Below, one piece after another: positions 8,737 through 28,458 of a stretch of 64,000 nucleotides of DNA (positions are counted from its first letter, which is position 1; each line of letters begins with the position of its first letter). The notes under the pieces are model-generated. The model made no database searches. It saw only the letters and a program-made list of their open reading frames with translations, and was not told the origin of the DNA. The stretch covers positions 10,506 to 74,505 of the forward strand of contig JACPDI010000012.1 of the NCBI GenBank assembly GCA_016184105.1, given 5' to 3'. This DNA is from Acidobacteriota bacterium. GTDB taxonomy: Bacteria > Acidobacteriota > Vicinamibacteria > Vicinamibacterales > 2-12-FULL-66-21. The translations under genes were made by a program, and so were the position numbers.

Positions 8737-9153
8737 ATGATGAGGCGATTGCCAGATATCGCGATCAAGGAATGCGTGGGTGAGCTGCGCGCCGCGTGCC
8801 GGCTGCCGATCGAGCCGGATGCGCTCGACGCGCTCATCGAACGTCTCCGTCCGAACTTCGAGCGGATCCTGGCGCACCCTGACGGGGTCAGGCGCTGGGC
8901 GGATCACGGCCAGCGCATGCGCGACAACGGCCGGCATCTGGGCGCGCTCGCCGACTTCTATGGCAACCGCGCCGGCCTCGTCGATCGCGATGCCCTGATG
9001 CGGGCGTTCCAGGCAATCCGCGAGGACTGCACGGTGCGCGCGCAGAGCACGCCGCTCGCGTACGAGTACTGCCGCCCTCCCGAGGCAGAGGATTCGTCGC
9101 GCGAGGACGAGGACTCCGTGCGTGGCGGCGTGCGCGTACCGGAGCCCGTCTAG
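8737..9153 (+). CDS. Hypothetical protein
   Basis: A 138-residue protein I do not recognise. The ATG at 8737 follows GGAGGAGG at 8-9 bases; an upstream GTG (8710) is less likely. It is mostly helical, with a charged first half ([52 protein letters not shown] split over two helices) and an acidic, disordered-looking tail ([12 protein letters not shown]). It has no signal peptide or membrane segment. A 10-bp hairpin closes the unit at 9168-9198. The strong ribosome-binding site and codon pattern support a real gene. Confidence 0.6.
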
Positions 9154-9167
9154 CCATCCGGCTCGAG

Positions 9168-9198
9168 CCGCCGCGGTGAGCTTGCCGAACCGCGGCGG
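9168..9198 (+). terminator. Hairpin after the hypothetical gene
   Basis: CCGCCGCGGT (9168-9177) and ACCGCGGCGG (9189-9198) form a perfect 10-bp stem with an 11-base loop, 15 bases after the stop. There is no clear T-run, so termination efficiency is uncertain. Confidence 0.5.
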
Positions 9199-9238
9199 AT
9201 CCTTCCACCCCCGTCTTCATCCAGAGGAGTGCCTGCAC

Positions 9239-12118: not shown

Positions 12119-12157
12119 GGGCGCCCTGGATGATCGCACGCCGGCATCCAGGCGCCC
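12119..12157 (+). terminator. Hairpin after the TonB-dependent receptor gene
   Basis: GGGCGCCCTGGAT (12119-12131) pairs with ATCCAGGCGCCC (12146-12157) with one bulged base, followed by a pyrimidine-rich ATTTCTCCTTC. It lies 12 bases after the receptor stop and overlaps an alternative ATG (12130) of the next gene, which argues for that gene's downstream start. Confidence 0.55.
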
Positions 12158-12174
12158 ATTTCTCCTTCACTGCC

Positions 12175-15100
12175 ATGACTGGTCTCCTGAGAGCCGTGCT
12201 GCGCGGGATCACTGCAACGCTCGTCATCCCCGGCGTGCTGGTCACCGTTTTACCCACGCGGGGACGTACGGCTCCATCCGCGGCGCAGCCACGCGGCCTG
12301 TCGTTCGAGCTGACGCGCAGCACTTTCCTGAACGTCGATGTTTCGCCGGACGGACGGGCGGTTGTGTTCGATCTGCTGGGCGATCTCTACCTGATGCCGA
12401 TAACCGGAGGCGCAGCGACGCCCCTCCTTGCGGGGCCGGACTGGGATCAGGCGCCGAGGTTCTCGCCCGATGGGACGATGGCCGCCTTCGTCAGCGACCG
12501 CAGCGGTATAGAAAACATCTGGGTCGTTTCTCTCGCCACCCATCGTCCGACGCAAGTCACCAACAGCGACAAACCCGTCGCCGGCACGCCATCGTGGTCT
12601 TCAGACGGGCGAGAGCTGCTGTTCGGCACGCGCGGTGTGGCATCGCGCCTTCAGGTGGTCACGGTCGATTCCCACGAGGTGAGGCCGCTCGAAGCGCATC
12701 CGGCGGGTGCGCTGGCCGACGCTCCGTTCACCTACAACTATCTTGCCGCCACGTCCGGCGTGGCTGGCAGGGACGGCGTGGTCTTCTTTTCGGAGATCCA
12801 CGTGGTGCATCCGAGGCCCGGGTTCCAGCACGGATCCAGAAGCGTGCTCGTGCGCTTCGACCCACGCGACGCATCCAGGCGCACCCTGACGAACCTGGCC
12901 CAGGCGCATGACGAATCGAAGCCACAGCTCTCGGCGAGCGGCCGGCTGCTCGCCTACTATCGCGCGCAAGACGGGGTCACCGAGCTTCGACTGCGCGACC
13001 TCGAGACGGGCGGCGACCGGCTGCTCGTCGAGGTGCCCGATGCTGACGATCCCTATCGGTGGGGAGACCGTGGGGATCCCATGCCCACATTCGCCTTCAC
13101 ACCGGACGAGCGGGCACTCGTCGTTGGCACGGGCGGCCGGATGTACCGAGTATCGATCAGCGACGGCCAACCGACGGAGATTCCATTCCGCGCCTCGGCA
13201 ACATTCGACATCCCGCCACGAGCCGCCGCGCGCCGCCGGATCAAGGACGGCCCGCTCGATGTGCGCGCGATCCGGTGGCCCTCGTTTTCGCGCGACAGCC
13301 GCCGCGCGGCGTTCAGTGCGCTCGGATCGATCTGGACACAGGAGCTGCCGGGAGGTGAACCGCGGCGAGTCAACGCGAGCGCGACCTTCGACCACATGCC
13401 GGCGATCTCGCCGGATGGGCGAAGCGTCCTGTATGTCTCCCACGATCTTCACGCCGCGCACGGAAAAGTGGTTCTCGCCGCCGTCGACGGCAGCGCGCAA
13501 CGGACCCTCCTCGGCGGCGAGTTCGAGTACTTCGCGCCGGCGTGGTCGCGTGACGGAAAGAAGATCGCGTTCGTGCGTTCCGGACGGCCGAGCGGGCCGC
13601 AACGCGATCCACGGTCGAGCGTCCTGGAGTACGGCTGGCTCGACCTCCAGCAGGGGACGACAACCGTCGCTGCGGTTCTCCCGAAGGGGCCGGTCCTTCC
13701 GTCACCCTTCGCGGTGCACGTCTCGTTCTCGGAGAACGGCCAGGAGCTGCTGTGCACCGGCCAGCCCGAATTGACGCGCATCGCGGTGTTCGCCGCGACG
13801 CTGGACGGAAGCTCTCGCAGGACGATCGCAACAGCCGGGCGCGACGTTCTCGGGGCGATTTCCTCGAACGACGGCCGCCGCGTTGCGTTCGTGGGCTGGA
13901 ATGGAGATCTGTGGCTCGCGATGCAGGAACCGGGCGCTCCGCCTGTCACGCTTCGTCCGGATCCCGCGCACGCGACGCCGATTGGCAACGACGCGACGAC
14001 GTCCCTGACCTGGCGCGACTCAGGGGCGCTCTTCGTCGCAAGCAGCCGCGCGGTCGCGCAGCTCGCGGCGCCTGACTGGACACCACGCGCCGTCACGACG
14101 CTTCACCTCGAGGCGCCGCGCCACGAAAGCAGGGCGACGCTCGCGCTCGTCAACGCCCGCGTCATCACCGTCGCGGGAGATCGCGGCGCGGGTCCAATTG
14201 TGGAGCGCGCGACGGTGATCGTGCGCGGGCGTCGGATTGCTGCCGTCGGCCCTGCGTCTCAGGTCGAAGTCCCTCGCGACGCGGGAGTCATCGACGTCGC
14301 TGGCATGACACTGCTGCCCGGGTTCCACGATGCGCACTACCACTGGATCGGCCAGGACGCAGGCTTCCGCCCGCGGGAGGACCCGAGCGCGATCCCCTTC
14401 GGCCTCACCTCGGCGTGGGACGCCATCTCCGGATACGGGGACATGGGCCAGGCGGCAGAGGAGATGCGCGGAGCAGGCCGGCTCCGTGGCCCGCGCGCGT
14501 TCTTCGCCGGCCGATCCGTCGAACACGCCGGCGGACAAGTACGTGGGCCTGAGGACGCGCAACACAGCGCCAGAATGCACGGCACGCTGGGCGTCGACCT
14601 GCTCAAGGACTACAACGTCCTGAGCCGGCGGACCCGGCGATGGTTTGCCGACGCGGCAAGGGCGGAAGGGCTCGGCATCGTTGGACACTTCGAGGGGCTC
14701 GGACAGGCGCTCTCGCGAGTGATGGACGGATACACGGGCATCGATCATCCGCGCTTCTCGGTACCGCTCGAGCAGGACGTTCTCCAGCTTCTGGCCCGAA
14801 CGAAGACGATCCTGACGCCGCAGGTGCAGCTCGCCGACGGCACGTCGAGTCTGGACGATGAGCCGTTGCGGCTGTACTTCGCGGAGGTGCAGCGCCGGAA
14901 GCCGGATCGCCTCGCCCGGATTCAGCGATACACAAGCAACAGCACCTACGTGAAGTGGATGACTCCCACGGACAAGCCGCTCGAGCGGATGCGCGCCTTC
15001 AAGGTGGCGCAGGCGTGCGCCGCGCTCGTTCGCGCGGGCGGAAGCATAGCGGTCAGCGGCCACAATGCGCCGGCAGTCCTCGTCCACGCCGAGATGTGGC

Positions 15101-15378
15101 TGCTCTGGAGAGGCGGTGTGGCGCCCGAGGAAATCATCCGCGCGGCGACGAGAACCGGCATCGAGAAGGCGGGCTATCTCGACGATCTTGGTTCGATCGA
15201 GCCCGGCAAGATCGCCGACCTCGTGATCCTGGGCTCCGACCCGCTCGCTGACGTCCTCAATACCATCGACGTCCGTTACACGGTTGTCGACGGTGTCGTG
15301 TACGACGCCGACACCGGCACGGAGATTCCGCCGCCCACGCTCGATCAGCATGGTGGCGCTCTACCCGGGAGCAGGTAA
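12175..15378 (+). CDS. Secreted TolB-like propeller plus amidohydrolase
   Basis: A 1067-residue protein. I chose ATG 12175 because the alternative at 12130 lies in a hairpin. The start gives a signal-like segment (MTGLLRAVLRGITATLVIPG). Residues ~45-640 are WD40/TolB-type repeats with recurring SPDGR/SRDG turns (NVDVSPDGRAVVFD, RFSPDGTMAAFVSDRSG, AISPDGRSVLYVS). Residues ~655-1060 are an amidohydrolase: LPGFHDAHYHW (metal HxH), LLKDYN lysine, GIVGHFEG and GIDHPRF histidines, AVSGHNAP, then EKAGYLDDLGSIEPGKIADLVIL. Related propeller-amidohydrolases are annotated as imidazolonepropionase-like or peptidase-like; the substrate is unknown. The stop shares its last base with the start of the next gene (TAATG). 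Confidence 0.8.
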   Translation: MTGLLRAVLRGITATLVIPGVLVTVLPTRGRTAPSAAQPRGLSFELTRSTFLNVDVSPDGRAVVFDLLGDLYLMPITGGAATPLLAGPDWDQAPRFSPDGTMAAFVSDRSGIENIWVVSLATHRPTQVTNSDKPVAGTPSWSSDGRELLFGTRGVASRLQVVTVDSHEVRPLEAHPAGALADAPFTYNYLAATSGVAGRDGVVFFSEIHVVHPRPGFQHGSRSVLVRFDPRDASRRTLTNLAQAHDESKPQLSASGRLLAYYRAQDGVTELRLRDLETGGDRLLVEVPDADDPYRWGDRGDPMPTFAFTPDERALVVGTGGRMYRVSISDGQPTEIPFRASATFDIPPRAAARRRIKDGPLDVRAIRWPSFSRDSRRAAFSALGSIWTQELPGGEPRRVNASATFDHMPAISPDGRSVLYVSHDLHAAHGKVVLAAVDGSAQRTLLGGEFEYFAPAWSRDGKKIAFVRSGRPSGPQRDPRSSVLEYGWLDLQQGTTTVAAVLPKGPVLPSPFAVHVSFSENGQELLCTGQPELTRIAVFAATLDGSSRRTIATAGRDVLGAISSNDGRRVAFVGWNGDLWLAMQEPGAPPVTLRPDPAHATPIGNDATTSLTWRDSGALFVASSRAVAQLAAPDWTPRAVTTLHLEAPRHESRATLALVNARVITVAGDRGAGPIVERATVIVRGRRIAAVGPASQVEVPRDAGVIDVAGMTLLPGFHDAHYHWIGQDAGFRPREDPSAIPFGLTSAWDAISGYGDMGQAAEEMRGAGRLRGPRAFFAGRSVEHAGGQVRGPEDAQHSARMHGTLGVDLLKDYNVLSRRTRRWFADAARAEGLGIVGHFEGLGQALSRVMDGYTGIDHPRFSVPLEQDVLQLLARTKTILTPQVQLADGTSSLDDEPLRLYFAEVQRRKPDRLARIQRYTSNSTYVKWMTPTDKPLERMRAFKVAQACAALVRAGGSIAVSGHNAPAVLVHAEMWLLWRGGVAPEEIIRAATRTGIEKAGYLDDLGSIEPGKIADLVILGSDPLADVLNTIDVRYTVVDGVVYDADTGTEIPPPTLDQHGGALPGSR

Positions 15379-18300
15379 TGCGTCTTGTGTGTCTGCCCAT
15401 CGTCCTCGTTCTGGTCGGTTTCCACGCGCTCGGAATCCGATCCACCAACCGCGCAACGCCGGAGAGCGACCGCCGAATGTCGTTCCACAACCGGTTGCTG
15501 CTGAACCGAGCGGTTGTGAGCAAATTGAAATCGATCGAAGTACTGGTGCTGGCCGCGGGCGATGCCCGGCCCGATGGGTTCATCCTCCACACCGAGGAGA
15601 TCGCCGCCCTCGCCAGGCACGTCGGCGGGCGCGTTGTCCGTGCGGAACGAGATATCGGGTACCTCCGGATCGAGATGCCCACCGAGCGGCTTCTCGAACT
15701 GGTCGCATCGCCGGCGATCGCGGCGTACCAGATCGCGTCGCTGTCGAAAGCGAGCTGGTACAGGGACGGGCCGCCCATGTCGAACGCCGAGATGTTTCGC
15801 GGCTTCGAGGTCGCGCCAATCGCGGCCAGCGAGCCGAGCGACACGCACGCCGGCCTTCCGCCGCTCTCCACGGCCGCGTCGCGCGAGCCGGGCTACACAG
15901 CCGACGACGACGTCGGGATCGGCGAGTGGCTGGCGGAGCATCCAACCTTTGACGGACGGGGCGTGACGATCGCGCTCGTCGAGACCGCGCTCCCCTCCTT
16001 CACCGATCCGACGCTGCGGCCGGCAAAGACGCTGGACGGGCGCGACGTGGCGAAGATCGCCGGCATCCTGAACACGCGCGGTCCCGCCGACCGCGACGAC
16101 ACGCGGGTCCTCCTCGATACCGAAGTGCAGGTTGATACGAGCTGGGCGCGCGTCTGGAGCCGGACGTACGTCCTGCCGCGGCCCGGCGCGTACCGTGCCG
16201 GACTCCTGAGATTGCCGGCCGGGTCGAACCTCGTGCACCAGTTCTGCGTTCTCGAGCACGAAGAGACGCGGGAGGTCTGGATCGACTCGAACGGCGACGC
16301 GTCGTTCCAGGACGAGACGCCGCTCGCCGACGTCAACGAGCGGTTCGAGCCGCGGTTCCTGAAACTGACGCACCCGAGAAAAGCGGACGTCAGCTTCGTG
16401 ATGGGTCGCGGGCGTGAACCGAACACGGTTCACATCTACATCGGCAGGGGCAGCCACCAGGCCATGACGGTCGGCGTGGCCGCGGGAAGCAGGACGGAGA
16501 AGAGCCTCGCGTACGGCGTCGCGCCGAACGCTCGTGTCCTGCTCGTGCGCAACCACGGATCGGATTACGAGCTGGACGTTCTGCTCGAGGGCTTCATCGA
16601 CGTGGCCAAACGCCCGGACGTGGACGTGATCAGCTCGTCGGCGGGCATCACGATGGTGCCGGACACGGCAGCGGACTTTGGCGGTCTCCTGTTCCAGCGA
16701 CTGGCCGACGTGTACCGAAAGCCTGTCCTCCTGGGCGCCGGCAACACGCACTCCGAGCTGGCGACGTCGAAGGCGCTTGGCGCAGCTCTCACTGTGGGCG
16801 GCTCTCTCGGACCAGCGACCGCCGCCGCCCTCCACGGGGGACGGCCGCTCGAGGGTTTGATGGTTCACCGCATCAGTGCGGCCGGACCGTCGATCGACGG
16901 CGCGATCAAGCCGGATTTCCTGGCGCCGATGGAACGGCTGGCCGTCGATCTCCCCTGGAACCGCGGCCTCGAGGCGGTGCCCAGGAACGCCCCCACGCAT
17001 CGGCTTCCCGCCGGCTATCAAATCTCATGCTGCACGTCGGCCAGCAGCCCGTACGCGGCCGGCGTCGCGGCGCTCCTCATCAGCGCGGCGAAGCAGCGCA
17101 AGGCGCCGTACTCGGCCGAGAGTCTGGCCCGCGCCCTGAGGCTGTCGGCCCGGTTCCTGCCCGGCTTCGGCAGCCACGAGCAGGGGAACGGCGTGCTCGA
17201 CGTCAACGCCGCCTGGCGCGCGCTGATCGATTACGTGGAGGCGCCGCGCATCATCGCCTCCGCGCGCATCGTCCACCCGCTGGCGCGGTACGCCGCCCGC
17301 GGATCCGAGGGCCAGGGCATTTTCGAGTTCGAAGGATGGACGGCCGGGATGAGCGGCACGCGGGAGATCCGGCTTCGGCGGGAGTCGGGACCTCAGTCGC
17401 CGACCAGCTACCAACTGACCTGGACCGGCAACGACGGGACGTTTCACACGGCGCCGCGGGTGATGCTGCCGCTCGGGAGGACGATCGCCGTGCCCGTGAG
17501 GATTGCGCCAAGGACGACAGGAGCGCACAGCGCGCTCCTCAATTTGCGTGACGCGTCGAACGCGGTCGTCTTCCGCACGCAGGCCACCATCGTAGCCGCC
17601 GATCGCATCGACGAATCCAGCGGATCGGTTCGCATCAGGGGGCGCGTCGGCCCGGCGCGCATCAACCGGCAGTACATCCACGTGCCGGCCGGCGCCGGCG
17701 CGATCAGCTTCGATGTCGATGTAGTTCAGGGCGTTGTCGCGCCATCCATTCTGCCGGCGCACGGTCTCTTTCCCGGCTACTACCCCCACGTGCACCCTGC
17801 CGCAGGCCGGTACGTCGGCAAAGGAAGGCACACGGTCCTCATCCCCAACCCGGAGCCAGGCACGTGGGCCATTCACCTCGACAACAGCTCGCTGCATCCG
17901 CGCTTTCCCGACGATCCGACGCCGGCCGACGACCGCGACGCGGAGTACGTGGTGACGATGCGCATCCTTGGCGCGGCCGTTCGCCCGGCCGCGTCATCGG
18001 CCGGCTCGATCGCGATTGAGGCGACGAACCTTGGAAGCGCCATTCGCGAGCCGGTGTTCATGGTGTCCCCAGCCACTCTGAAGACTCACCGAGCGGAGTT
18101 CCTCGGGAGCGGCCTGCCGCGCACGATCGAGATGTCCGTCCCGAAAGATGCCGCGGCGTTGTCGCTGCGGGTGCGCTCGGAGCAGCCGGCGGCGACCGGC
18201 GTGGAGCTGTATCTGTACGACTGCACGACCGGTGAGTGCTTCGCGTACGACATCGCGTTCCCTGCCGCCGGTGCGCACTCGATAGTCGTTCGGCGACCGA

Positions 18301-18638
18301 ACGCCGGGCGGTGGGTTGCGGCGGTGAACCCGGCGCCGTTCCCCACAGCCGGCAGCGCATTCGTGCTGGAGGAGATCATCGCCACCGGGACGCCGCGGCG
18401 TTACAACTCGAGGGGCGCGCGCGTTCCAGGCGCGCGGTGGACCGAAACGATCGAGAGCCTCAACCCCGCCCCGGCGCCGGCGGGCCCTGAAGCGCCGCTA
18501 CTGCTCATCGAACTGATCGACGCCGCGGCCGAGCGGGACGAGGCCGTTCACCGGTGGGACCCCCGTCCGGAGGTGCCCGAGCGGATGCGGCTCAGGGATC
18601 GCCCGGTGGCGCTCGGGTCGGCGATCTACCTGCGTTAG
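15378..18638 (+). CDS. Secreted subtilisin-fold (S8) protein resembling tripeptidyl-peptidase II, copy 1
   Basis: A 1086-residue protein with an N-terminal signal segment (MRLVCLPIVLVLVGFHALG). Subtilisin landmarks can be placed. DGRGVTIALVETALP is the Asp region, but the catalytic Asp reads Glu. A ~170-residue insertion contains WIDSNGDASFQDE, then SHQAMTVGVAAGS is the His region. GAGNTHS holds the oxyanion Asn, and CCTSASSPYAAGVAALL the Ser region. A long Asp-His insertion and large C-terminal beta domains recall tripeptidyl-peptidase II. The start overlaps the amidohydrolase stop, so the two are co-translated. Whether Glu supports catalysis is unclear; it could be an inactive binding protein. 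The next gene is a tandem paralogue. Confidence 0.75.
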   Translation: MRLVCLPIVLVLVGFHALGIRSTNRATPESDRRMSFHNRLLLNRAVVSKLKSIEVLVLAAGDARPDGFILHTEEIAALARHVGGRVVRAERDIGYLRIEMPTERLLELVASPAIAAYQIASLSKASWYRDGPPMSNAEMFRGFEVAPIAASEPSDTHAGLPPLSTAASREPGYTADDDVGIGEWLAEHPTFDGRGVTIALVETALPSFTDPTLRPAKTLDGRDVAKIAGILNTRGPADRDDTRVLLDTEVQVDTSWARVWSRTYVLPRPGAYRAGLLRLPAGSNLVHQFCVLEHEETREVWIDSNGDASFQDETPLADVNERFEPRFLKLTHPRKADVSFVMGRGREPNTVHIYIGRGSHQAMTVGVAAGSRTEKSLAYGVAPNARVLLVRNHGSDYELDVLLEGFIDVAKRPDVDVISSSAGITMVPDTAADFGGLLFQRLADVYRKPVLLGAGNTHSELATSKALGAALTVGGSLGPATAAALHGGRPLEGLMVHRISAAGPSIDGAIKPDFLAPMERLAVDLPWNRGLEAVPRNAPTHRLPAGYQISCCTSASSPYAAGVAALLISAAKQRKAPYSAESLARALRLSARFLPGFGSHEQGNGVLDVNAAWRALIDYVEAPRIIASARIVHPLARYAARGSEGQGIFEFEGWTAGMSGTREIRLRRESGPQSPTSYQLTWTGNDGTFHTAPRVMLPLGRTIAVPVRIAPRTTGAHSALLNLRDASNAVVFRTQATIVAADRIDESSGSVRIRGRVGPARINRQYIHVPAGAGAISFDVDVVQGVVAPSILPAHGLFPGYYPHVHPAAGRYVGKGRHTVLIPNPEPGTWAIHLDNSSLHPRFPDDPTPADDRDAEYVVTMRILGAAVRPAASSAGSIAIEATNLGSAIREPVFMVSPATLKTHRAEFLGSGLPRTIEMSVPKDAAALSLRVRSEQPAATGVELYLYDCTTGECFAYDIAFPAAGAHSIVVRRPNAGRWVAAVNPAPFPTAGSAFVLEEIIATGTPRRYNSRGARVPGARWTETIESLNPAPAPAGPEAPLLLIELIDAAAERDEAVHRWDPRPEVPERMRLRDRPVALGSAIYLR

Positions 18639-18652
18639 TAGCGAGAGGCCTC

Positions 18653-21600
18653 ATGCGGATCGCGATGCTCCTGATTGTCATCATCGTGCTCGCCGCCTCC
18701 GGCGAGCAGGGCCTCCGAACGCCGGCCACAACGGTTGCGCGGCGGATGTCCTTCCATAACCGCCTTCTGCTCAACCGCGCCGTCGTCAGCGGGCTGAAAT
18801 CGATTGAGCTGCTCGTACTCGCCAGCAGCGAGACCGCCGGCGGCAGCTTTGGCGTTCACGTGCAAGAGATCGCCGCGCATGTGAACCGCCTCGGCGGGCG
18901 CGTGCTGCGGACGAAAGCCGACATCGGCTACCTCCGCGTGGAAGTTCCGACCGGGCGGGTGCTCGAACTCGTCGGGTCTCCCGCGCTCGAGGCCTATCAG
19001 ATTTCTTCTCTCTCGAAAGGGACGTGGTACCGGGATGGCCCGCCGCTGTTGAACGCGGAGATGTTCCGCAGCTTCGAGGTCACACCGGTCGCTGCCGGCG
19101 AGCCGAACGACGCACATGCCGAGCTTCCGCTCCTCTCGAACGCCGCGTCGCGCGCTCCTGGCTACACGGCGGACAACGATGTCGGGATTGGCCAGTGGTT
19201 GGCGGAGCATCCGACGTTCGACGGCCGCGGCGTGACGATTGCGCTGGTCGAGGGCGCCCAGCCGTCATTGGTCGATCCGACGCTTCGTGCGGCGAAGGCA
19301 CTTGATGGCCGCGAGATCCCGAAGATCGCGGGCATCCTGAACACGATCGATCCGGCCCACGCGGACGACACGCGCGTCGTGCTGGACACCGAGGTGACGC
19401 CCGGCACCAGTTGGGCGCGGATCGGCAGCCGCACGTACATCCTGCCCAGGCCTGGCGGGTATTTCTTCGGCAGGTTCGTCCTGACCGCCGGTTCCAACGT
19501 GGTGCACCAGTTCGGTGTCATCGAAGACAAGCGCACCGGAAAGGTGTGGATTGACGCAAACGGCGATGCATCCTTCCAGGACGAATCGCCAGTTCCCGAC
19601 GTCAACGAGCGGTTCGAGCCGCGGTTCCTGAAGCTGAGGCATCCGCGAAATGCCGACGTGAGCTTCGTCATGGGCCGCGGATCCGGACCGCGCGTCGTAC
19701 ACATCTACGTGAGCCGGGCCAGTCACGAGGCGATGACTCTCAGCATGGTCGCCGGCAGCAGGACGGACGAGAGCCTGGCGTACGGCGTAGCGCCGGCGGC
19801 CCGGCTGCTGCTGGTGCGAAATTCGACGATGGAGTACCTGCTGGCTGACGTGCTCGAGGGATTCATTGAGGCGGCCGGCCGGCCGGAGGTCGACATCGTC
19901 AGCTCCTCGGGTGGAATCAGCCTCATCCCGGACACCGCCGCGGATTTCGGCGGCGTCCTTTTCGATCGGCTGGTGAGCGTGTACCGCAAGCCGATTTTGA
20001 ACGGCGCGCTGAACCATCACCTTCAGCTCGGGACGTCGCTCGCGCTTGGAGGTCTCCTCTCGGTGGGAGGATCTCTTGGCCCGGAGACGTACGCCGCCCT
20101 GCACGGGGGGCGTCCGCTCGAGCGGATCATCGTGCACCCAACGGCATCGGCCGGACCCGCGCTCGACGGGGCGATCAAGCCGGATTTCATCGCGCCGGTG
20201 GAGCGCCTCTCGACCGATCTTCCGTGGAACCGGGGCATCGCGGCCGTGCCGCGCACCGTTCCCGCGTGGCGCCTCCCCAACGGCTACCAGATCAGTTGCT
20301 GCACCTCGGCCAGCGGGCCCTATGCCGCCGGCGTCGTCGCCCTCCTGATCAGCGGTGCCAAACAGATGCGGTGGCCGTATTCGGTCGACAGCCTCGCGCG
20401 CGCCATGAAGATCTCCGCGCGCTTTCTCCCAGGGTTTGGGAGTCACGAGCAGGGGAACGGCCTGCTGGACATCCGCGCCGCGTGGCGCGAGCTGACCCGC
20501 TCCGTCGAGCCGCCGCGCATCGTCGCCTCGGCAAGAGTGGTTCATCCGCTGGCGCAATACGCCGCACGTGGGGCGGACGGCCAGGGGATCCTCGAGTTCG
20601 AAGGCTGGACGGCAGGCGTGAAGGCAGCTCGCGAGATCCGGTTCCGGCGCAAGTCCGGCCCGGACTTCCCGGTCACCTATCGCCTGAGCTGGACCGGCAA
20701 CGACGGGACGTTTCACACCGCTCCGTCGGTGACGCTGCCGCTCGACAAGACGATCGCCGTCCCTGTGACCATCGCGCCGAAGACGATGGGAGCCCACAGC
20801 GCGCTCCTCAACCTGCACGACGACGCGTCAAAGGCCATCGTCTTTCGGACGCAGGCCACGATCGTCGCGGCCGAGCGCCTCGACGCCTCCACCGGATCGG
20901 TGCGCTTCACCGGACGCGTCGGCCTGATGCGAACGAACGCGCACTACATCGAGGTGCCACAGGGCACCCGCGCCATCACGTTCGAGCTGGAGGTGTCCGG
21001 TGGGGTTGTCAGACCGACGATCCTGCCCGTCCATGGCCTCTTCCGGAGCTATTACCTGCACGTACACCCGTCGAATATCCGTTCCTTGGCGAGGGGCAGA
21101 CACGCGATCACGCTGCCCAATCCGGGACCTGGCACGTGGACGATCCTCATTGGCAACGACTCGGCGTGGCTTCACCTGCCCGACGAAGCGCCGGCGGATG
21201 ATGGAGACGGGGAATACGCCGTGACGGTGCGCGTTCTGAGTGCGTCGATTCGCCCCGCCCCGGCGTCGGGGCTTTCGGCCGCAGTCGAGGTGACGAATCT
21301 GGGAAGCACGGTGCGCGAGCCGGTCCTGACCGTGTCGCGGGCCGTCCTCAGAACTCATCGTGGGGACTTCCTCCCCAACGGGCTGCCCCACGTGTTCGAT
21401 ATCGACGTGCCCGAAGACGCCGCAACCATGTCGCTGCACGTGCGGCGCGAGAATCCGCCCACGACCGGTGTCGAGTTGTACCTGTACGACTGCACTTCAG
21501 GCGAGTGCTTCTCGTACGACATCGCCTTCCCTGCCGGGCCTGAGCACACGATGGTCGTGCGCAAGCCGAATCCGGGACGCTGGGTTGCGGCAGTCAGCCC

Positions 21601-21898
21601 CGCGCCGTTTCCCAATGCGGACGGAGGGTTCGTGCTCGACGAGATCATCGCCACCGGCACTGCGCGGCAGTACGAGTCGAAGGATTCGCGCGCTCCAGGC
21701 GCGCGGTGGGCCGAGACGGTCGGAGCCATCGACTCCGCACCGGTTCAGGCGAACGCCGAAATGCCGGCGCTCCTCATCGAGCTGATCGACCGCGCGGTCG
21801 AACGCGACGAGTCTGCCTACCCGTGGGACCCGAGGCCGAAGTCTAGAAAGCCGAGGGATCGCCCGATTGCGGTCGCGAGCGCGATCTACCGGCGGTAG
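18653..21898 (+). CDS. Secreted subtilisin-fold (S8) protein resembling tripeptidyl-peptidase II, copy 2
   Basis: A 1081-residue tandem paralogue of the preceding gene, alignable end to end from RRMSFHNRLLLNRAVVSG to the shared end IAVASAIYRR (RPVALGSAIYLR in copy 1). The ATG at 18653 follows GAGAGG, 14 bases after the copy-1 stop. The Asp region again has Glu (VTIALVEGAQP), the His region is ASHEAMTLSMVAGS, and the Ser region is CCTSASGPYAAGVVALL. The oxyanion region has drifted to NGALNHHLQ. So copy 1 keeps the GxGN form while copy 2 lost the Gly before Asn, which suggests divergence of function or loss of activity. A signal peptide is present (MRIAMLLIVIIVLAASG). It ends 12 bases before the 3' end of the convergent lasso cluster overlaps it (21886-21898). 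Confidence 0.75.
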   Translation: MRIAMLLIVIIVLAASGEQGLRTPATTVARRMSFHNRLLLNRAVVSGLKSIELLVLASSETAGGSFGVHVQEIAAHVNRLGGRVLRTKADIGYLRVEVPTGRVLELVGSPALEAYQISSLSKGTWYRDGPPLLNAEMFRSFEVTPVAAGEPNDAHAELPLLSNAASRAPGYTADNDVGIGQWLAEHPTFDGRGVTIALVEGAQPSLVDPTLRAAKALDGREIPKIAGILNTIDPAHADDTRVVLDTEVTPGTSWARIGSRTYILPRPGGYFFGRFVLTAGSNVVHQFGVIEDKRTGKVWIDANGDASFQDESPVPDVNERFEPRFLKLRHPRNADVSFVMGRGSGPRVVHIYVSRASHEAMTLSMVAGSRTDESLAYGVAPAARLLLVRNSTMEYLLADVLEGFIEAAGRPEVDIVSSSGGISLIPDTAADFGGVLFDRLVSVYRKPILNGALNHHLQLGTSLALGGLLSVGGSLGPETYAALHGGRPLERIIVHPTASAGPALDGAIKPDFIAPVERLSTDLPWNRGIAAVPRTVPAWRLPNGYQISCCTSASGPYAAGVVALLISGAKQMRWPYSVDSLARAMKISARFLPGFGSHEQGNGLLDIRAAWRELTRSVEPPRIVASARVVHPLAQYAARGADGQGILEFEGWTAGVKAAREIRFRRKSGPDFPVTYRLSWTGNDGTFHTAPSVTLPLDKTIAVPVTIAPKTMGAHSALLNLHDDASKAIVFRTQATIVAAERLDASTGSVRFTGRVGLMRTNAHYIEVPQGTRAITFELEVSGGVVRPTILPVHGLFRSYYLHVHPSNIRSLARGRHAITLPNPGPGTWTILIGNDSAWLHLPDEAPADDGDGEYAVTVRVLSASIRPAPASGLSAAVEVTNLGSTVREPVLTVSRAVLRTHRGDFLPNGLPHVFDIDVPEDAATMSLHVRRENPPTTGVELYLYDCTSGECFSYDIAFPAGPEHTMVVRKPNPGRWVAAVSPAPFPNADGGFVLDEIIATGTARQYESKDSRAPGARWAETVGAIDSAPVQANAEMPALLIELIDRAVERDESAYPWDPRPKSRKPRDRPIAVASAIYRR

Positions 21899-23133
21899 AC
21901 CGCACGCACAAGACGTTGCGCGAGGCGCGCCGTGGCTACGTCGAGCACGCCGTGCGCTTCGCCACGGTCGGTGCTCTTTTCGACCCGCTTCCAGCCCAGC
22001 CAGCCTTCAAGGACCGCCGCTGCCAGATCGAAGGCCGGCCAACTTACCTCTTTCAATGGCGGAGACCACGCCTCCCGGTAGGAATGGCAGGCCGAGTCAT
22101 CGTGACATCGTCTGGCGAACATCGCCATCGCGAGCGGCGCCGGTCCAAGGAACGAGTCGTCCAGATCGATGAAGCTAATCCTTCCGTCATCATCTACGAG
22201 CACGTTGACCGGATCGAGATCGAGCGGGATCCAGCTTCGGGGTACGTCCGCGCATCGCACCTCGTCGCACGCCCGTTCGACAGCGGCGCGGCACGCGCGG
22301 TCGCTCAGCAGGCCAGCGCTCCAGGCAGCGGCACTGGGAAGAGCCACTTCCTGCAGTTCCCCGAGCACCTGTGCCGACGCCATGACCCGACGCTGCACGC
22401 GCGCAAGGTCGCGGGCGACGATGGCGGCCGCTCCCGCGTCAGGCCGCGTTGCGAGCGTTTTGCCCGGACACTCCGCGGCGAGCCACCACACGGCGTCGTC
22501 CGGCCTCTCTTCCAACGCCAGCGTTCGCGCGAACGCGCGCGGCTCCAGCCCTGACAGGACGCGTGTGAGTCGAGGCTCGGCTGTCCTGTCCGCTGTGAGA
22601 CCTTTGAAGTAGACACGCCCGCGCTTGGTTTCAGCGCTGAGCACGACCTCGTGAGAGGTGACGCGGTAGGGAGTGACCGGCCCCACGCGCGGCTCACCCA
22701 CCACCTCGCCTACCCAGTCTCTGACTTCTCCGAGCCAGGTGAGATTGCCGAACGGCCCTCGTACGGACGGCAAACCGTTCTGCCGCAGCGTCGCCGCGAC
22801 GGCCCACTGCTGGTAGTCGAGCAGCGACGTCCCTGAGGCGAGAGTATCGAGGGGCGTCCAACTGAGACCACTGTTCGTCGCTCGTGAACCGGGCAGCGCG
22901 TCGATCGCCACGAGCCAATCCATGCTGTCCTGCGAAGGCGTGAGCCGTCCGAGCCAGCGCCCGGCAATGTCGCCGCGCAGTCCCTGCTCTTCGAAGCAGC
23001 GCACGATGAGTGAATCGACACGTGCGCGCTCTGGACAAGTGAGCGCGGGAAGCAGCCAGCGCGTGCCCTGCCAGGCTGCGAGCGCAGCGCGATGGCTCCG
23101 ATCGACGACGAGGAGGTGAAGAACGTGGGGCAT
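21886..23133 (-). CDS. APH-fold phosphotransferase-like protein of the lasso cluster
   Basis: A 415-residue protein; the ATG at 23133 begins MPHVLHLLVVDRS. The N-terminal ~120 residues (WLLPALTCPE, LRGDIAGRWLGRL, MDWLVAIDALPG, YQQWAVAATL) form a separate domain with a loose Nudix-like look. The C-terminal half is an aminoglycoside-phosphotransferase/choline-kinase fold: WWLAAECPGKTL, then WIPLDLDPVNVLVDDDGRISFIDLDDSFLG. The Brenner motif reads LDLDPVN (His replaced by Leu, Asp kept) and the metal motif reads IDLDD. Lying directly after the two precursor genes, it could modify the lasso peptides, as HPr-kinase-like tailoring enzymes do in paeninodin clusters, but that is inference. A 13-bp hairpin separates it from the precursors. 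Confidence 0.7.
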   Translation of the reverse strand: MPHVLHLLVVDRSHRAALAAWQGTRWLLPALTCPERARVDSLIVRCFEEQGLRGDIAGRWLGRLTPSQDSMDWLVAIDALPGSRATNSGLSWTPLDTLASGTSLLDYQQWAVAATLRQNGLPSVRGPFGNLTWLGEVRDWVGEVVGEPRVGPVTPYRVTSHEVVLSAETKRGRVYFKGLTADRTAEPRLTRVLSGLEPRAFARTLALEERPDDAVWWLAAECPGKTLATRPDAGAAAIVARDLARVQRRVMASAQVLGELQEVALPSAAAWSAGLLSDRACRAAVERACDEVRCADVPRSWIPLDLDPVNVLVDDDGRISFIDLDDSFLGPAPLAMAMFARRCHDDSACHSYREAWSPPLKEVSWPAFDLAAAVLEGWLGWKRVEKSTDRGEAHGVLDVATARLAQRLVRAVYRR

Positions 23134-23197: not shown

Positions 23198-23338
23198 TCA
23201 GTCGTCGAGACCGAGCGCGATGCCTTCCACCGGCCTCGAGGTTGTGGAGTCGCCGTGGTCGAACAGGCCTGGCTTGATGCCAAGCACGAGAATCGACGCC
23301 TGGCCGAGCGCGACCAGCTCAGGAGTTGCGTACTTCAT
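23198..23338 (-). CDS. Lasso peptide precursor 2
   Basis: A 46-residue peptide preceded by a near-perfect AAAGGAGGTGA site 5 bases before ATG 23338. It starts MKYATPEL, the lasso leader signature YxxPxL bound by the B1 protein. The best core candidate begins at Gly20: GIKPGLFD puts Asp at position 8, suitable for an 8-residue Gly1-Asp8 macrolactam, followed by HGDSTTSRPVEGIALGLDD. The usual Thr two residues before the core is replaced by Val, so the cleavage site is not certain. It shares leader and tail with precursor 1 but differs in the ring. Confidence 0.75.
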   Translation of the reverse strand: MKYATPELVALGQASILVLGIKPGLFDHGDSTTSRPVEGIALGLDD

Positions 23339-23386
23339 GGTCGTCACCTCCTTTCATTATTTGGTGCGGCTGAGCGCTGGCACGTA

Positions 23387-23527
23387 CTACTCATCCAGGC
23401 CCAGTCCAATGCCCTCTGCCGGACGACTCATGTTCGTCGCCCCGCTGTCGAGCACTCCACCCGGGATCCCCTGCACCAGGACCGCCGCCGTGCCGACGAC
23501 GACGAGTTCAGGCGTTGAGTACTTCAT
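23387..23527 (-). CDS. Lasso peptide precursor 1
   Basis: A 46-residue peptide whose ATG (23527) overlaps the last 20 bases of the C gene and follows the strong site GGAGGGAGGTGA. The leader starts MKYSTPEL (YxxPxL). The candidate core starts at Gly20 with GIPGGVLD (Asp8 for the macrolactam), then SGATNMSRPAEGIGLGLDE. The SRPxEGIxLGLD tail is nearly identical in precursor 2, while ring and loop residues differ. It has no similarity to other gene classes, and context with B1, B2 and C makes the assignment secure; the cleavage point is inference. Confidence 0.78.
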   Translation of the reverse strand: MKYSTPELVVVGTAAVLVQGIPGGVLDSGATNMSRPAEGIGLGLDE

Positions 23528-25241
23528 TGGTCTTCACCTCCCTCCGTTGTGAATTTGCGGGCGCGTGTTGCCGCGCCTGCAGCCACTTCTCCAGGCGCAG
23601 GACGGAGTGAACTTCTCCGCCTGTCGCTCCCCCGCCGTCGGTCAGCGCGCGGATCGCCTCGCGCAGGCGTGCCGGATCGATCCAGCCGCGCCGCACGACC
23701 TCGAGGTCCTCGATTCGCGACAGCGACGCGACCGCCTCGCGTGCCGCGCGAAAGGCGGCGGGCGGGTAGTAGCCCTTGGATGTTCGGCGGAGGACCCGAT
23801 CGGGCACGAAGCCGGCGAACGCGCGGCGCATGAGCGATCGCGTATCGCCGGGCGCGCTCGATTCCTCGCCGGGGATGGCCAGCATGAACTCGACGAGCGG
23901 GCGGTGAGAGAACGGATAGGTGTACGTGATGCCTGGCGGAAGAACGGGCACGTCGAGTCGCGCGCCAACTGAGTAGCCCAACACCATCCGCGCGAGCGCC
24001 CGCTTGGCAGGGCGAATGCCCCGCAGCAACTCCTGAAATGGATCGCTGCCGCCCGTGAATTCCTTCAGTCTCGCGGTCAGCAGGCCCGTTCCCGGATCGG
24101 CGCGGTCTTCATCGGCGGCGACGAGGAGCCTCCACGCGATTTCCACGAACGGCTTGCGCGTCGCGCGGCTCCAGGCGCGCATGTTGGCGAGCGCATCGCG
24201 CACCCGCCACCGCGCGAAGTCGTCGAAGACGGCGGCGCCGTTGTCGGGCTGACATCCCATCACCGCGTCGCCCATACGCCCCGAGAGCACCTCGCGGCCG
24301 CCGCCATCGCGCACCCGGCGCACGCACTCGAGGCCCACGCCGTGCAGCGCGTACGGCGACACCCAGTCCCACGCCTCGTCGCGGCAGTCCTGGTGTTCCT
24401 CGACGCCGACGATCTCGCTGCGCACGCCGAGCTGCCGCTCCACTTCCGCGATGAAACGCCGCTCGTCGCCTTCCGGCGAGCGCAGCGTCGCGTGCGACAC
24501 GGGGCGGATGGAGGTCGCCCCCACCTGGCCGCTCTGTATCAGGCGGTCCGCCATGCACACGACAGACGATGAGTCGAGGCCGCCGCTGAGCTCCGCCCAG
24601 ATGACGCCGCGCGCCCGCAGCCTCGAGGCGACCGCGTCGCGCCACAGCGCACGCAGGTGCTCCTCGTAGGCGCGCTTGTCGGCGTAGCGGATCAGCGACG
24701 GCTCGAGCGACCAGAACCTGCGGCGGGCGATCGCGCCTCGGGCATCGAACGACAGGCAGGTCGCCGCCGGCACCGCGCGCACGCTCTCGTAGGGCGTGTC
24801 CTCGGGCGACGGGCGCAGCGACATGAAGCGCGCGACGAACGCCTCGCTGAGCGCGTCGCGGAAGCCGCACCGCTCCACCAGCTCGCCGAGGCTGCTCGAC
24901 CACGACACCGAGTCGCTGCCGGCGTGGTAGTAGAGCGGCCGCGCGCCCATGTAATCGCGCGCCAGGTGCAGGCACCGGTTCCTCTCGTCCCAGACCGCCG
25001 CGCTCCAGTCGCCAATCAGATCCCGGAACGCGTCGAGCCCGCGCCGCTCGACGAGCGCGAGCGTAATTTCCGCGTCCGTCGCGCAGCCGGGGAGCGTGCC
25101 GCCGATCTGGAGGAGCAGGTCCTCGCGGTTGTCCAGCCGGCCGTCCCACGTCATCGCGAGCCCTGATTCCCCGCGACGGCAGCCGCTGGTGCTCGCGTTC
25201 GGCCGGCCATCGAAGAAAAAGACTCCGGACTGCGTCACCAT
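23508..25241 (-). CDS. Lasso peptide macrolactam synthetase (asparagine synthase-like C protein)
   Basis: A 577-residue protein; the ATG at 25241 has GAGGAG 6 bases upstream. The N-terminal ~190 residues are an Ntn/GATase-II-like domain (MTWDGRLDNREDLLLQIGG, ATDAEITLALVERRG) that lacks the usual catalytic Cys at position 2, typical of lasso C proteins, which use no glutamine. The C-terminal domain has the ATP pyrophosphatase loop AELSGGLDSSSVVCMA and downstream LSGRMGDAVMG. It adenylates the ring Asp/Glu side chain so the core N-terminus can attack it. It comes after B2 (10-base gap) and before both precursors, an order different from the common A-first layout. Confidence 0.88.
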   Translation of the reverse strand: MVTQSGVFFFDGRPNASTSGCRRGESGLAMTWDGRLDNREDLLLQIGGTLPGCATDAEITLALVERRGLDAFRDLIGDWSAAVWDERNRCLHLARDYMGARPLYYHAGSDSVSWSSSLGELVERCGFRDALSEAFVARFMSLRPSPEDTPYESVRAVPAATCLSFDARGAIARRRFWSLEPSLIRYADKRAYEEHLRALWRDAVASRLRARGVIWAELSGGLDSSSVVCMADRLIQSGQVGATSIRPVSHATLRSPEGDERRFIAEVERQLGVRSEIVGVEEHQDCRDEAWDWVSPYALHGVGLECVRRVRDGGGREVLSGRMGDAVMGCQPDNGAAVFDDFARWRVRDALANMRAWSRATRKPFVEIAWRLLVAADEDRADPGTGLLTARLKEFTGGSDPFQELLRGIRPAKRALARMVLGYSVGARLDVPVLPPGITYTYPFSHRPLVEFMLAIPGEESSAPGDTRSLMRRAFAGFVPDRVLRRTSKGYYPPAAFRAAREAVASLSRIEDLEVVRRGWIDPARLREAIRALTDGGGATGGEVHSVLRLEKWLQARQHAPANSQRREVKTNEVLNA

Positions 25242-25250
25242 GGCGGCTCC

Positions 25251-25649
25251 TCAGAGGCGATCGAGGACGGTGAACGCGTTCTGGTACTGCGGGCGATCGT
25301 TGACGACGCGGCCGTCGACCTCGACCCACGCGTGAGACTCGAATGGAAGAGGACGGCACCCGATGACCGTTTCCGCGCGCAGGCCGTGCCGCCGCAGTAG
25401 CCAGGTGGCGACGGCCGAGCGCTGCAGGCAGGCGGCGCGCTTCACGTACCACACGCACGCCTCGTCCACGGCCCAGACGATGTCGTCTGCGCCCGCCCAC
25501 GAGCGGCGGCTCGCAGGACGCAGGCGGCGGAGCCAACTGCAGATGTGAGAGAACCCGGCGTGCCGGGCGAGATCGAACGCGGCCAGCAGCAGCCACGCGT
25601 GGGCGGCGAGAGCGATGAAGCGGAGTCCGCGTTGCGCCTGCCACGCCAC
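25251..25649 (-). CDS. Lasso peptide leader peptidase (B2 protein, transglutaminase-like)
   Basis: A 132-residue protease that cuts the leader from the precursor. The Cys-His-Asp triad of the transglutaminase-like family is visible: AACLQRSAVATWLLRRHG (Cys), FESHAWVEVDG (His) and VVNDRPQYQ (Asp). The N-terminal part (FIALAAHAWLLLAAFDLARHAG) is hydrophobic, as in other B2 proteins. It is separated from the RRE gene by 5 bases, a split-B arrangement, and followed by C after 9 bases. Confidence 0.87.
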   Translation of the reverse strand: MAWQAQRGLRFIALAAHAWLLLAAFDLARHAGFSHICSWLRRLRPASRRSWAGADDIVWAVDEACVWYVKRAACLQRSAVATWLLRRHGLRAETVIGCRPLPFESHAWVEVDGRVVNDRPQYQNAFTVLDRL

Positions 25650-25654
25650 GGCCG

Positions 25655-25948
25655 TCAGTCCTGTACGAGGAGACCGCGCTCCACGAGCGCGGCGACGAAG
25701 GCCGCCACGTCGCCCCGCGCGCGCTCGTGCGCGATGCCGTAATCGCCGGCGAGCTGCAGCGCGATCTCAGCGCCGCTGCGCCGCTGCTCGATCAGTTGCC
25801 AGATTCGCGCGCCGACCTGGTTCGACGACCACACGAACCCGCCGCTGGCGTCGAGGAGCACGAGACCGTCGGTGGAGATCGACGCTCGAACAGCAGGCGA
25901 TGGACGAAGCCGATCCGCGTGCATGAGAGGCACTCGGGCGGCGCCCAT
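25655..25948 (-). CDS. Lasso peptide leader-binding protein (B1, PqqD-like RRE)
   Basis: A 97-residue RiPP-recognition protein. STDGLVLLDASGGFVWSSNQVGARIWQLIEQ and AEIALQLAGDYGIAHERARGDVAAFVAALVERGLL match the PqqD winged-helix pattern (strands, then the helix that cradles the leader). It should hold the YxxP leader and present it to B2 and C. The start could be ATG 25948 or ATG 25924 (MHADRLRP); neither has a strong Shine-Dalgarno site. It is the first gene of the cluster. Confidence 0.82.
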   Translation of the reverse strand: MGAARVPLMHADRLRPSPAVRASISTDGLVLLDASGGFVWSSNQVGARIWQLIEQRRSGAEIALQLAGDYGIAHERARGDVAAFVAALVERGLLVQD

Positions 25949-26374: not shown

Positions 26375-26782
26375 ATGCGTCGCCGTCGCGCGCGGGCCGC
26401 GAGTGCTGTCGAGTGGCCCCTTGCTCTCCGTCAGATCATCCTCGCCGCCGAGCGCGAATGCACGGGCGGACACGCCGAAGCGCTGCGCGAGCTGCTCGCG
26501 CTGGCGCTCGTCAAGGTGCCGTCCCGGGGAATCTTCGATCCCACGTGCCGCGGCGAGGACGAGTTGTTCACGGCGATCGAGTCCGTCGCGCACGCGTACC
26601 TCGACCTGCGGCCGGCGCGAAAGGCCTGGCGGGAGGCCTTGCGGACGGCGGCGACCGACATCAACGCGCGCGACCGCGTCGAACAGGCAGCCCTTCAACT
26701 CCAGTGTGTGTCAGATACTGCGTACTTCTACGCAGGCCTGGCATTCGGGCTGGCCGCGGTGTCGCTTTTTCGAACCCGCTGA
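26375..26782 (+). CDS. Hypothetical protein
   Basis: A 135-residue protein, not recognised. AAGGAGG sits 6 bases before ATG 26375, strong evidence that it is translated. The N-terminus is basic (MRRRRARAASAVEW). The middle is helical (LRQIILAAERECTGGHAEALRELLALAL, in two helices; DELFTAIESVAHAYLDLRPARKAW). The C-terminal ~20 residues (TAYFYAGLAFGLAAVSLFRTR) form a hydrophobic tail that could anchor it in the inner membrane. It precedes the sigma-54 activator by 61 bases; no functional link is shown. Confidence 0.6.
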   Translation: MRRRRARAASAVEWPLALRQIILAAERECTGGHAEALRELLALALVKVPSRGIFDPTCRGEDELFTAIESVAHAYLDLRPARKAWREALRTAATDINARDRVEQAALQLQCVSDTAYFYAGLAFGLAAVSLFRTR

Positions 26783-26843: not shown

Positions 26844-27839
26844 GTGGGCCTGGGGCGCGGTTTTCCGGCTGAGGTCTTCGTCCCCGATGATCCGTTTCCC
26901 GAGATTGACGGCGCGTGTCCCGAGATCCGCGGGTTGAAACAGGACCTGTCGCGCGTGGCGCGCGACCCTGATGTGACCGTGCTGATCCTCGGCGAGTCCG
27001 GCACGGGAAAGGACCGCATCGCGCGCGCCATCCATCGCGCCTCCCCCCGTTGCCGTGCCCCCTTCGTCATCGTCGATTGCGCCGGGCTGACCGCGACGCT
27101 TGCCGGCGACGAGCTGTTCGGCCACGTCCGCGGGGCGTTCACGGGTGCGTTCGACGACCGCGCGGGCCCGTTCGAGCGGGCAAACGGAGGAACGGTGCTG
27201 CTCGACGAGGTCGGCGACCTCGCGATCGATCTTCAGATGAAGCTGTTGAGGGCGATTCAGTCCCGGACGGTCCAGCGGCTGGGCGGCAGGCAGGAAACCG
27301 GGTTCGACGCGCGGATCATCGCATCGACAAACGTGAACCTGGCGCTCGCCACGACAAGCGGCCGGTTCCGCGAGGACCTGTACTACCGGCTCAAGGTGTA
27401 CGAGATCAGAGTGCCGCCGCTGCGCTCGCGAGGCCCCGGCGACATCCGCGTGCTTGCCGCCGCGATCCTGGCGCGTCTTGCCGAGCGCCGCCACCGCCCG
27501 GCGCCCCGGCTGGACTCCGAGGTGCTCGACGTCCTGGCGCGCCACAGGTGGCCCGGGAACATCCGGGAGCTGGAAAACACGTTGGAACGGATGCTCGTGG
27601 CGGCGGCACCCGCCGATGTCGTGTTGACGGTGCGGCACCTCCCGGACGATTTCGGTGCAACCCCGAATCCGGCCGCCGGGCCGGGCCGCCACGCGCTGCC
27701 GCCGGTGCAGGACGCGCTGGCGGCGCTCGCACAAAACGGCGCTACGCTCGGGCGCACAGCGAAGGCGCTCGGTGTGTCACGCCACCAGCTTTATCGCCTT
27801 CTGAAGCGCTCCGGCGTCGGTTACCGAACGCGCAGCTGA
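26844..27839 (+). CDS. Sigma-54-dependent transcriptional activator without a receiver domain
   Basis: A 331-residue AAA+ enhancer-binding protein that remodels sigma-54 RNA polymerase. Visible motifs are Walker A GESGTGKD, the sigma-54-contacting GAFTGAF loop, Walker B GGTVLLDEVGD, sensor ASTNVNL, and RWPGNIRELENT. A C-terminal Fis-type helix-turn-helix (TLGRTAKALGVSRHQLYRLLKRSGV) follows. Only ~25 residues precede the AAA+ domain, so there is no receiver, GAF or PAS input domain; activity must be controlled by expression or a partner. The start is a GTG without a clear Shine-Dalgarno site. Its 3' end overlaps the convergent sigma-factor gene by 98 bases. Confidence 0.85.
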   Translation: MGLGRGFPAEVFVPDDPFPEIDGACPEIRGLKQDLSRVARDPDVTVLILGESGTGKDRIARAIHRASPRCRAPFVIVDCAGLTATLAGDELFGHVRGAFTGAFDDRAGPFERANGGTVLLDEVGDLAIDLQMKLLRAIQSRTVQRLGGRQETGFDARIIASTNVNLALATTSGRFREDLYYRLKVYEIRVPPLRSRGPGDIRVLAAAILARLAERRHRPAPRLDSEVLDVLARHRWPGNIRELENTLERMLVAAAPADVVLTVRHLPDDFGATPNPAAGPGRHALPPVQDALAALAQNGATLGRTAKALGVSRHQLYRLLKRSGVGYRTRS

Positions 27840-28458
27840 GAATCGATTTCTGCGATCGATCGCCGGTCAGGCGCTCGCCCGCCGGGCGTGCCCATGCCTG
27901 CAGCCGCGCGAGCCCCCGGTAGTAGTAGTGCCGCGTGCAGCCGACCGACACGCCGAGGCGCTTGGCGACGTCGCGCAGCGTGAGTTCCTCGAAGCAGGCC
28001 AGCTCGATCGTCGTGCGCTGGCGATCGGGCAGTCGCGCCAGGCCGGTCCGCAGGAGCCAGCGCCCTTCTTCCCGCGTGAGGCGTGGACGCTCGCCGGCGG
28101 CCGCGCTCTCCGCCGCTTCGAGCGGCTCTCCCGCGTACGCGACCCGTCGCTGCAGCGCCGCCTTGCGCCGGAGCGTGCGATGGTAGGCATACTGCAGCAG
28201 CCATGTCTTGACCGATCCACGCGCCGCGTCGTACAAGTACGCTTTCCGGTACACCTCCAGGAACACTTCCTGAGTGATGTCCTCCGCTTCCGCCCTGTCG
28301 CTGAGAATGCCGGCCGCAACGCGGTAGACCAGTCGCACATAGCGGGAAAACAGCGCTTCGAACGCATCGCCGTTGCCGGCGCGCAACTCGTGCATCAGCT
28401 CTTCGTCATTCTTGCCAACCGCCGCAGGGTTGATACCACCGATAGATGTCAGCATCAT
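27742..28458 (-). CDS. ECF-type sigma-70 family factor
   Basis: A 238-residue sigma factor. Region 2 is present (DAFEALFSRYVRLVYRVAAGILSD, EAEDITQEVFLEVYRKA, KTWLLQYAYHRTLRR), as is region 4 (RLPDRQRTTIELACFEELTLRDVAKRLGVSVGCTRHYYYRGLARL). AGGGG precedes the ATG. The last ~35 residues are unlike the family and lie in the antisense overlap with the sigma-54 activator. No anti-sigma gene is adjacent; a small XRE regulator lies divergently 60 bases away. Confidence 0.85.
   Translation of the reverse strand: MMLTSIGGINPAAVGKNDEELMHELRAGNGDAFEALFSRYVRLVYRVAAGILSDRAEAEDITQEVFLEVYRKAYLYDAARGSVKTWLLQYAYHRTLRRKAALQRRVAYAGEPLEAAESAAAGERPRLTREEGRWLLRTGLARLPDRQRTTIELACFEELTLRDVAKRLGVSVGCTRHYYYRGLARLQAWARPAGERLTGDRSQKSILSCAFGNRRRSASEGDKAGGVTHRAPSLCARA

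Follow-up and report, generated by a model that had tools for sequence, protein, structure and literature searches.

A lasso peptide cluster in an acidobacterial genome encodes two precursors with different predicted rings and a shared C-terminal tail, together with a kinase, and converges with genes for subtilase-like proteins and a TonB-dependent receptor. We read this arrangement as a lasso system of the receptor/isopeptidase type in which the kinase would tag the peptides, S8 proteins would replace the S9 protease and the constant tail would serve as a handle, a reading of the whole to which we assign a probability of about 0.5. The locus lies within a stretch of 64,000 nucleotides (the window), part of contig C12 of an Acidobacteriota MAG of 4.24 Mb, and comprises the following features.

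23387..23527, minus strand: lasso precursor A1, sequence MKYSTPELVVVGTAAVLVQGIPGGVLDSGATNMSRPAEGIGLGLDE; leader residues 1-19, core GIPGGVLDSGATNMSRPAEGIGLGLDE, predicted ring Gly1-Asp8
23198..23338, minus strand: lasso precursor A2, sequence MKYATPELVALGQASILVLGIKPGLFDHGDSTTSRPVEGIALGLDD; core GIKPGLFDHGDSTTSRPVEGIALGLDD, predicted ring Gly1-Asp8
23508..25241, minus strand: C, lasso macrolactam synthetase, asparagine-synthetase-like (Pfam, NCBIfam); shares its final 20 nt with the start of A1
25251..25649, minus strand: B2, leader peptidase, transglutaminase-like (Pfam; NF033537 over cut-off)
25655..25948, minus strand: B1, PqqD-like leader-binding protein (RRE; Pfam, NCBIfam)
21886..23133, minus strand: K, APH-fold kinase (Pfam APH; conserved residues in 13 lasso-linked relatives)
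18554..21898, plus strand: secreted S8 subtilase-like protein; converges with K, the two genes sharing 13 nt
15378..18638, plus strand: second S8 subtilase-like protein, with a homologue in 7/162 genomes of the order
12130..15378, plus strand: beta-propeller (PD40) and amidohydrolase protein
9122..12106, plus strand: TonB-dependent receptor with plug, carboxypeptidase-regulatory and outer-membrane barrel domains
26375..26782, plus strand: 135-aa protein without assigned function, transcribed divergently from B1, mostly restricted to genomes with the cluster
27742..28458, minus strand: ECF-type sigma factor, syntenic in relatives

The minus-strand genes follow one another in the transcription order B1, B2, C, A1, A2, K, and the lasso cluster is complete, with B1 (RRE), B2 and C encoded together with two A genes and the APH-fold kinase. 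Under the strict NCBIfam cut-offs B2 scores above and C and B1 below, and the match of A1 to lasso_leader_L3 falls just below its cut-off. The 20-nt overlap of C and A1 is identical in all five clusters of the family. The 135-aa protein has no Pfam match and a distribution nearly equal to that of the lasso/kinase cluster, and the ECF-type sigma factor is a possible regulator, other regulators also being syntenic in the relatives. The same genome carries a second lasso-type locus (L089, G000:C54:6500-21000) with B2, a C candidate and an HPr-kinase-like gene.

Both 46-residue precursors are open reading frames on the minus strand where the original prediction had placed them, and the unusually strong ribosome-binding sites that it described are present, GGAGGTGA lying 6 nt before the ATG of A1 and the full AGGAGGTGA 5 nt before that of A2. 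The Shine-Dalgarno match is thus near-perfect at A1 and perfect at A2, and is absent or weak at B1, B2, C and K, a difference that would fit high output of precursor and low output of enzyme. Since the GTG start listed for A2 falls within the Shine-Dalgarno site, the start is taken to be the ATG at 23338. In four further genomes of the order, A1-like precursors are encoded between C and K (E values of 5e-12 to 2e-6 for the best copy per genome with A1 as query, and about 1e-23 with the family profile; matches elsewhere in the order with E 0.001-0.1, mostly fragments within long open reading frames, were left out). A six-frame scan of the window finds no further copy of the tail motif with a stop codon after it. 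This recurrence between C and K and the uniqueness of the motif in the window argue that the precursors are not chance reading frames, and presence in five genomes of the order rules out a single-cluster oddity. The counts out of nine given below refer to the precursors from these five genomes.

The assignment of the precursors as lasso peptides, with a core starting at Gly20 and a Gly1-Asp8 ring, is borne out by the leader spacing and the homologues. Tyr, Pro and Leu stand at positions -17, -14 and -12 relative to the core in all nine precursors, so that the YxxPxL motif lies 17 to 12 residues ahead of Gly20. Characterised leaders have the same spacing (PMC10368454), and by it the cut falls before Gly20, with Val as residue -2. 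This Val, present in 9/9, replaces the usual Thr(-2) of lasso leaders, Ile or Val at -2 being an accepted exception that includes Acidobacteriaceae (PMC10368454). Gly is found at core position 1 and the ring Asp at core position 8 or 9 in 9/9; every precursor also has Gly as its fifth or sixth ring residue, and the ring and loop are the most variable parts across the nine. The calculated masses of full-length macrolactams are 2564.254 Da for A1 and 2748.372 Da for A2. We hold the lasso cluster and the Gly1-Asp8 ring with high confidence; threading is predicted.

The kinase K matches Pfam APH at 8e-5, just under the cut-off, and 9 of its 13 lasso-linked relatives match the same family (best 2e-11); the kinase profile additionally yields weak matches to hygromycin-B and spectinomycin kinases. 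Lys177, Glu186, Asp305, Asn310 and Asp323 are invariant among all 13 lasso-linked relatives, which keep the ATP-binding Lys, the catalytic Asp with an Asn five residues on and the metal-binding Asp of APH proteins. The AlphaFold model of K, made with the window sequence and two relatives, is poor (pLDDT 42). One relative, the kinase of G102 (L021:5417-6556), misses some 60 residues after the region of the ATP-binding Lys, by deletion or assembly fault. Linkage to lasso genes is consistent: the first kinase set stands beside B1/B2/C in 13/13 cases, and among further kinase regions of family f26, which belongs to the same phylum and lies outside the window's class, 16/20 do so and one more ends at a contig edge after B1. 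K is not of the HPr-kinase type, as judged by its APH match and by precursors that end in Asp or Glu rather than Ser, an ending that makes the published C-terminal phospho-Ser impossible here. Phosphorylation by K is proposed with moderate confidence.

On the opposite strand, an S8 gene is convergent with K in 5/5 clusters, the gene ends overlapping by 13-16 nt, and the plus-strand run beyond it leads to a TonB-dependent receptor wherever the contig is long enough; at the window locus this run contains two subtilases and the amidohydrolase with beta-propeller. The subtilase occurs in 7/162 genomes of the order, including all five with the lasso/kinase cluster, and the probability that five random genomes would all fall within those seven is about 2e-8 (calculated by hand and ignoring relatedness). 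In the sixth such genome (G006), pieces of S8 and receptor genes lie on short contigs, and the seventh (G160) has an S8 protein that retains the catalytic Asp, in a stretch without lasso genes. Full-length copies of the receptor at 59% identity or more are confined to genomes with the cluster, counting G002, in which the contig ends inside C, and TonB receptors of the same type are otherwise numerous in these genomes; the window receptor, missed by a TonB HMM built from family f26, was identified by Pfam and synteny. The S8 proteins keep the His and Ser motifs of the subtilase triad, and the first catalytic Asp of Asp-His-Ser is replaced by Glu in those lasso-linked copies that cover the site (window 15378-21898, plus strand; L022, L023, L024 and L211), so that the Glu-bearing proteins could be weakly active or inactive. 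A relative of the propeller-amidohydrolase protein (12130-15378) is found at L025:84-782, directly convergent with the L025 lasso genes, and this protein may be part of the system. We hold with moderate confidence that the locus acts as one system.

The position occupied by the S8 genes has a counterpart elsewhere in the phylum. In the eight f26 kinase clusters of the first set, an S9 protease and then a TonB receptor stand at the same convergent position, as they do at L132 and L159, and the best solved-structure match of two such S9 proteins is the lasso isopeptidase AtxE2 (7e-19 and 2e-27). In the window's genome, S9 matches are confined to other contigs and are partial and distant, and a screen restricted to Walker and LSGG motifs found no ABC exporter in window positions 1-40000 or at L021-L024. 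The locus has the TonB receptor of isopeptidase-type clusters and, as is usual for them, shows no exporter by motif, but has S8 subtilases where they have an S9 isopeptidase. We read this as one protease family, S8, having taken the fixed place of another, S9, in a lasso locus of the receptor/isopeptidase type.

The f26 kinase-linked precursors end in YEADE or similar; in 17/20 of them the residue four positions ahead of the Tyr is Ser or Thr (background 19%), and so they appear to use a different motif with the same logic as the tail described below. These precursors (L087, L088, L117, L121, L127, L141, L144, L241-L243, L245, L248-L251, L253 and L258) have Asp or Glu at core positions 7-9 in only 6/20 cases; a Lys with Asp or Glu six or seven residues on is found in 19/20 (shuffles average 7.7 and reach this count in 0/5000), which may mean that the ring is unusual or that the core starts elsewhere. 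Several f26 clusters also have a long gene between K and B2 (L121:4955-6985; L088:7580-9613), that of L121 encoding a prolyl-oligopeptidase-family protein.

The tail itself, described in the original prediction as a near-invariant SRPxEGIxLGLD, deserves that description when A1 and A2 are compared (10 of the final 13 residues identical), but the wider family fixes just G..LG.D plus a Ser/Thr. G..LG.D is present in the tail of 9/9, and a slightly altered form of the end G[ILVM]xLG[LV]D[DE] is kept by the precursor of L025, the second lasso cluster of G161; the full SRPxEGIxLGLD is not invariant. Core positions 12 and 15 (A1 numbering) hold Ser or Thr alone in all nine kinase-linked precursors (6S/3T and 7S/2T), compared with a Ser/Thr background of 6% elsewhere in the core, although the kinship of the precursors inflates the 9/9 count. 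Because exchange between Ser and Thr alone is the pattern of a kinase target, both positions are candidate phosphate sites. The tail is two-layered, combining a site for a hydroxyl residue with GIxLGLD(D/E) at the C-terminus. The expectation that conserved tails are unusual for a lasso core is not supported, since other acidobacterial lasso families also keep constant parts around variable middles, as observed at L152-L156 and at L162, L171 and L184 (DCxGLCLDG and GCL/PCL-ending types).

One explanation of such a tail is recognition by the kinase and nothing else, with K binding GIxLGLD(D/E) and phosphorylating a nearby Ser/Thr, and with receptor and subtilases unrelated to it. A fixed tail Ser/Thr in both kinase-linked groups (9/9 twice; 17/20 in f26) and an end that is constant within each group speak for this, and the accompaniment of the kinase by two Ser/Thr-only columns upholds part of the earlier suggestion of a kinase motif. 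The L025 precursor, however, ends in GLEVGLDD without Ser/Thr at core 12 or 15, and no kinase is present in the approximately 900 bases remaining 3' of it, where a contig end cuts the cluster, so that the C-terminal end is not merely a kinase tag. Acidic ends also occur without this kinase in clusters with S9 and TonB genes, at L159 (DTDE) and at L132 (EEE or DED in three paralogues), and published lasso kinases require the leader, aided by B1 (PMC10368454). From L025, L132 and L159, the few kinase-less clusters available, the acidic constant end would track receptor/protease-type clusters and the Ser/Thr columns the kinase; a purely kinase-linked tag is weakened by the same three, and we consider it unlikely.

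Alternatively, the tail could be kept for folding, as a threaded part that C or B1/B2 need to pre-fold the lasso and hence under ordinary structural constraint. Its Gly, Leu and Asp positions are fixed though the kinase, receptor and protease types differ among groups, and the constant parts of other lasso families are in keeping with such a role; yet f26, with related B1, B2 and C, has a different end motif, and the 27-residue core provides more tail than a minimal lasso needs, which makes this explanation improbable. For the proposal of a follower, in which the tail would be removed once maturation is complete, possibly by a subtilase, to give shorter lasso peptides, there is no positive support: two subtilase-like proteases are encoded next door and the conservation of the tail is separable from that of ring and loop, but the isopeptidase-like S9 proteins at that position in related clusters point to breakdown rather than trimming, and removal of followers is not known as a feature of lasso maturation, so that we regard this possibility as very remote. 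The receptor and subtilases of the conserved locus, to which the original prediction drew no link, are the other likely partners for the tail, and a shared handle for uptake or breakdown appears likelier than a removed follower, although our confidence as to which protein reads it is low.

Several known systems share parts of this arrangement. The metagenomic acidobacterial BGC 482.1, described in 2022 (PMC9064862), likewise has B1, B2, C, a pair of A genes of 141 bp each and a kinase given as 'aminoglycoside phosphotransferase' and lists no D gene, differs in gene order and in having Leu and Ser at -2, and yielded no detected product; no discussion of a receptor or protease role was found. 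The bsf cluster of Bradymonas sediminis (PMC10368454) shares a non-Thr residue at -2 (Ile, compared with Val in the window), the Gly1-Asp8 ring and a kinase, which in bsf acts on the precursor; BsfK is HPr-kinase-like and targets ring Ser3, whereas the window K has an APH fold and candidate sites at core 12 and 15, and bsf has an ABC transporter, of which the motif screen detected none at the window locus. The paeninodin and pseudomycoidin kinases (PadeK, ThcoK, PsmK) are also encoded with lasso genes and act on the precursor, but modify a C-terminal Ser, in contrast to an APH-fold K with precursors ending in Asp or Glu. The isopeptidase-type clusters of astexin, sphingopyxin and benenodin combine a TonB receptor and a protease with the lasso genes, as the window does, and such clusters usually have no ABC exporter (PMC9266682); their isopeptidase is of the S9 prolyl-oligopeptidase type rather than an S8 subtilase, and no kinase of the window type has been described for them.

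Val/Ile(-2), an APH-type kinase with paired A genes, and a TonB receptor with isopeptidase have thus each been published separately. The combination of kinase and receptor types, the exchange of S8 for S9 and the Ser/Thr-only sites were absent from the open-licence papers searched, and no relevant paper on subtilases in lasso clusters was found in that literature. The two-layer tail and the convergent extension of the locus into a TonB-dependent receptor and subtilases look new.

In the mechanism that we propose, B1 would bind the YxxPxL leader, B2 would cleave before Gly20 and C would close the 8-residue Gly1-Asp8 ring, all by known chemistry. As published lasso kinases act on the precursor, K would probably phosphorylate the linear precursor at Ser/Thr12, Ser/Thr15 or both, which lie in the loop or upper tail. 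By analogy with the S9 clusters, the TonB-dependent receptor would most likely return the mature peptides across the outer membrane, and the secreted S8 subtilase(s) would open or degrade them. Ring and loop would be free to vary, with GIxLGLD(D/E) retained as a handle for shared machinery, so that one receptor and one protease set could serve two peptides with different rings and loops. Published lasso isopeptidases recognise the loop and not the tail (PMC9266682), in which case the tail would fall to the receptor. The sequences themselves show the gene set, the leader spacing, the pattern of conservation, the retained kinase residues, the conserved locus and the S8/S9 exchange; threading, phosphorylation and its sites, uptake, cleavage and the partner of the tail are inferred. 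A bolder version, doubtful in our estimation, holds that Ser-His-Glu subtilases are a second, independently evolved lasso-opening class that displaces S9, and that a private TonB receptor reads the constant, possibly phosphorylated tail in a cycle of making, tagging, retrieving and opening.

The locus bears on what lasso peptides of the receptor/isopeptidase type contribute to the bacteria that make them. Since a pair of peptides with unlike rings and a common tail apparently shares one set of receptor and protease, tail swaps would reveal the part read by uptake, and the exchange of S8 for S9 predicts lasso opening or degradation by a subtilase in vitro. The Ser/Thr-only columns name candidate target residues for a kinase class without lasso-pathway characterisation in the papers found. 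Taken as a whole, the locus points to a bacterium that would produce and tag its own lasso peptides and later retrieve and degrade them, using a protease whose family is unexpected.
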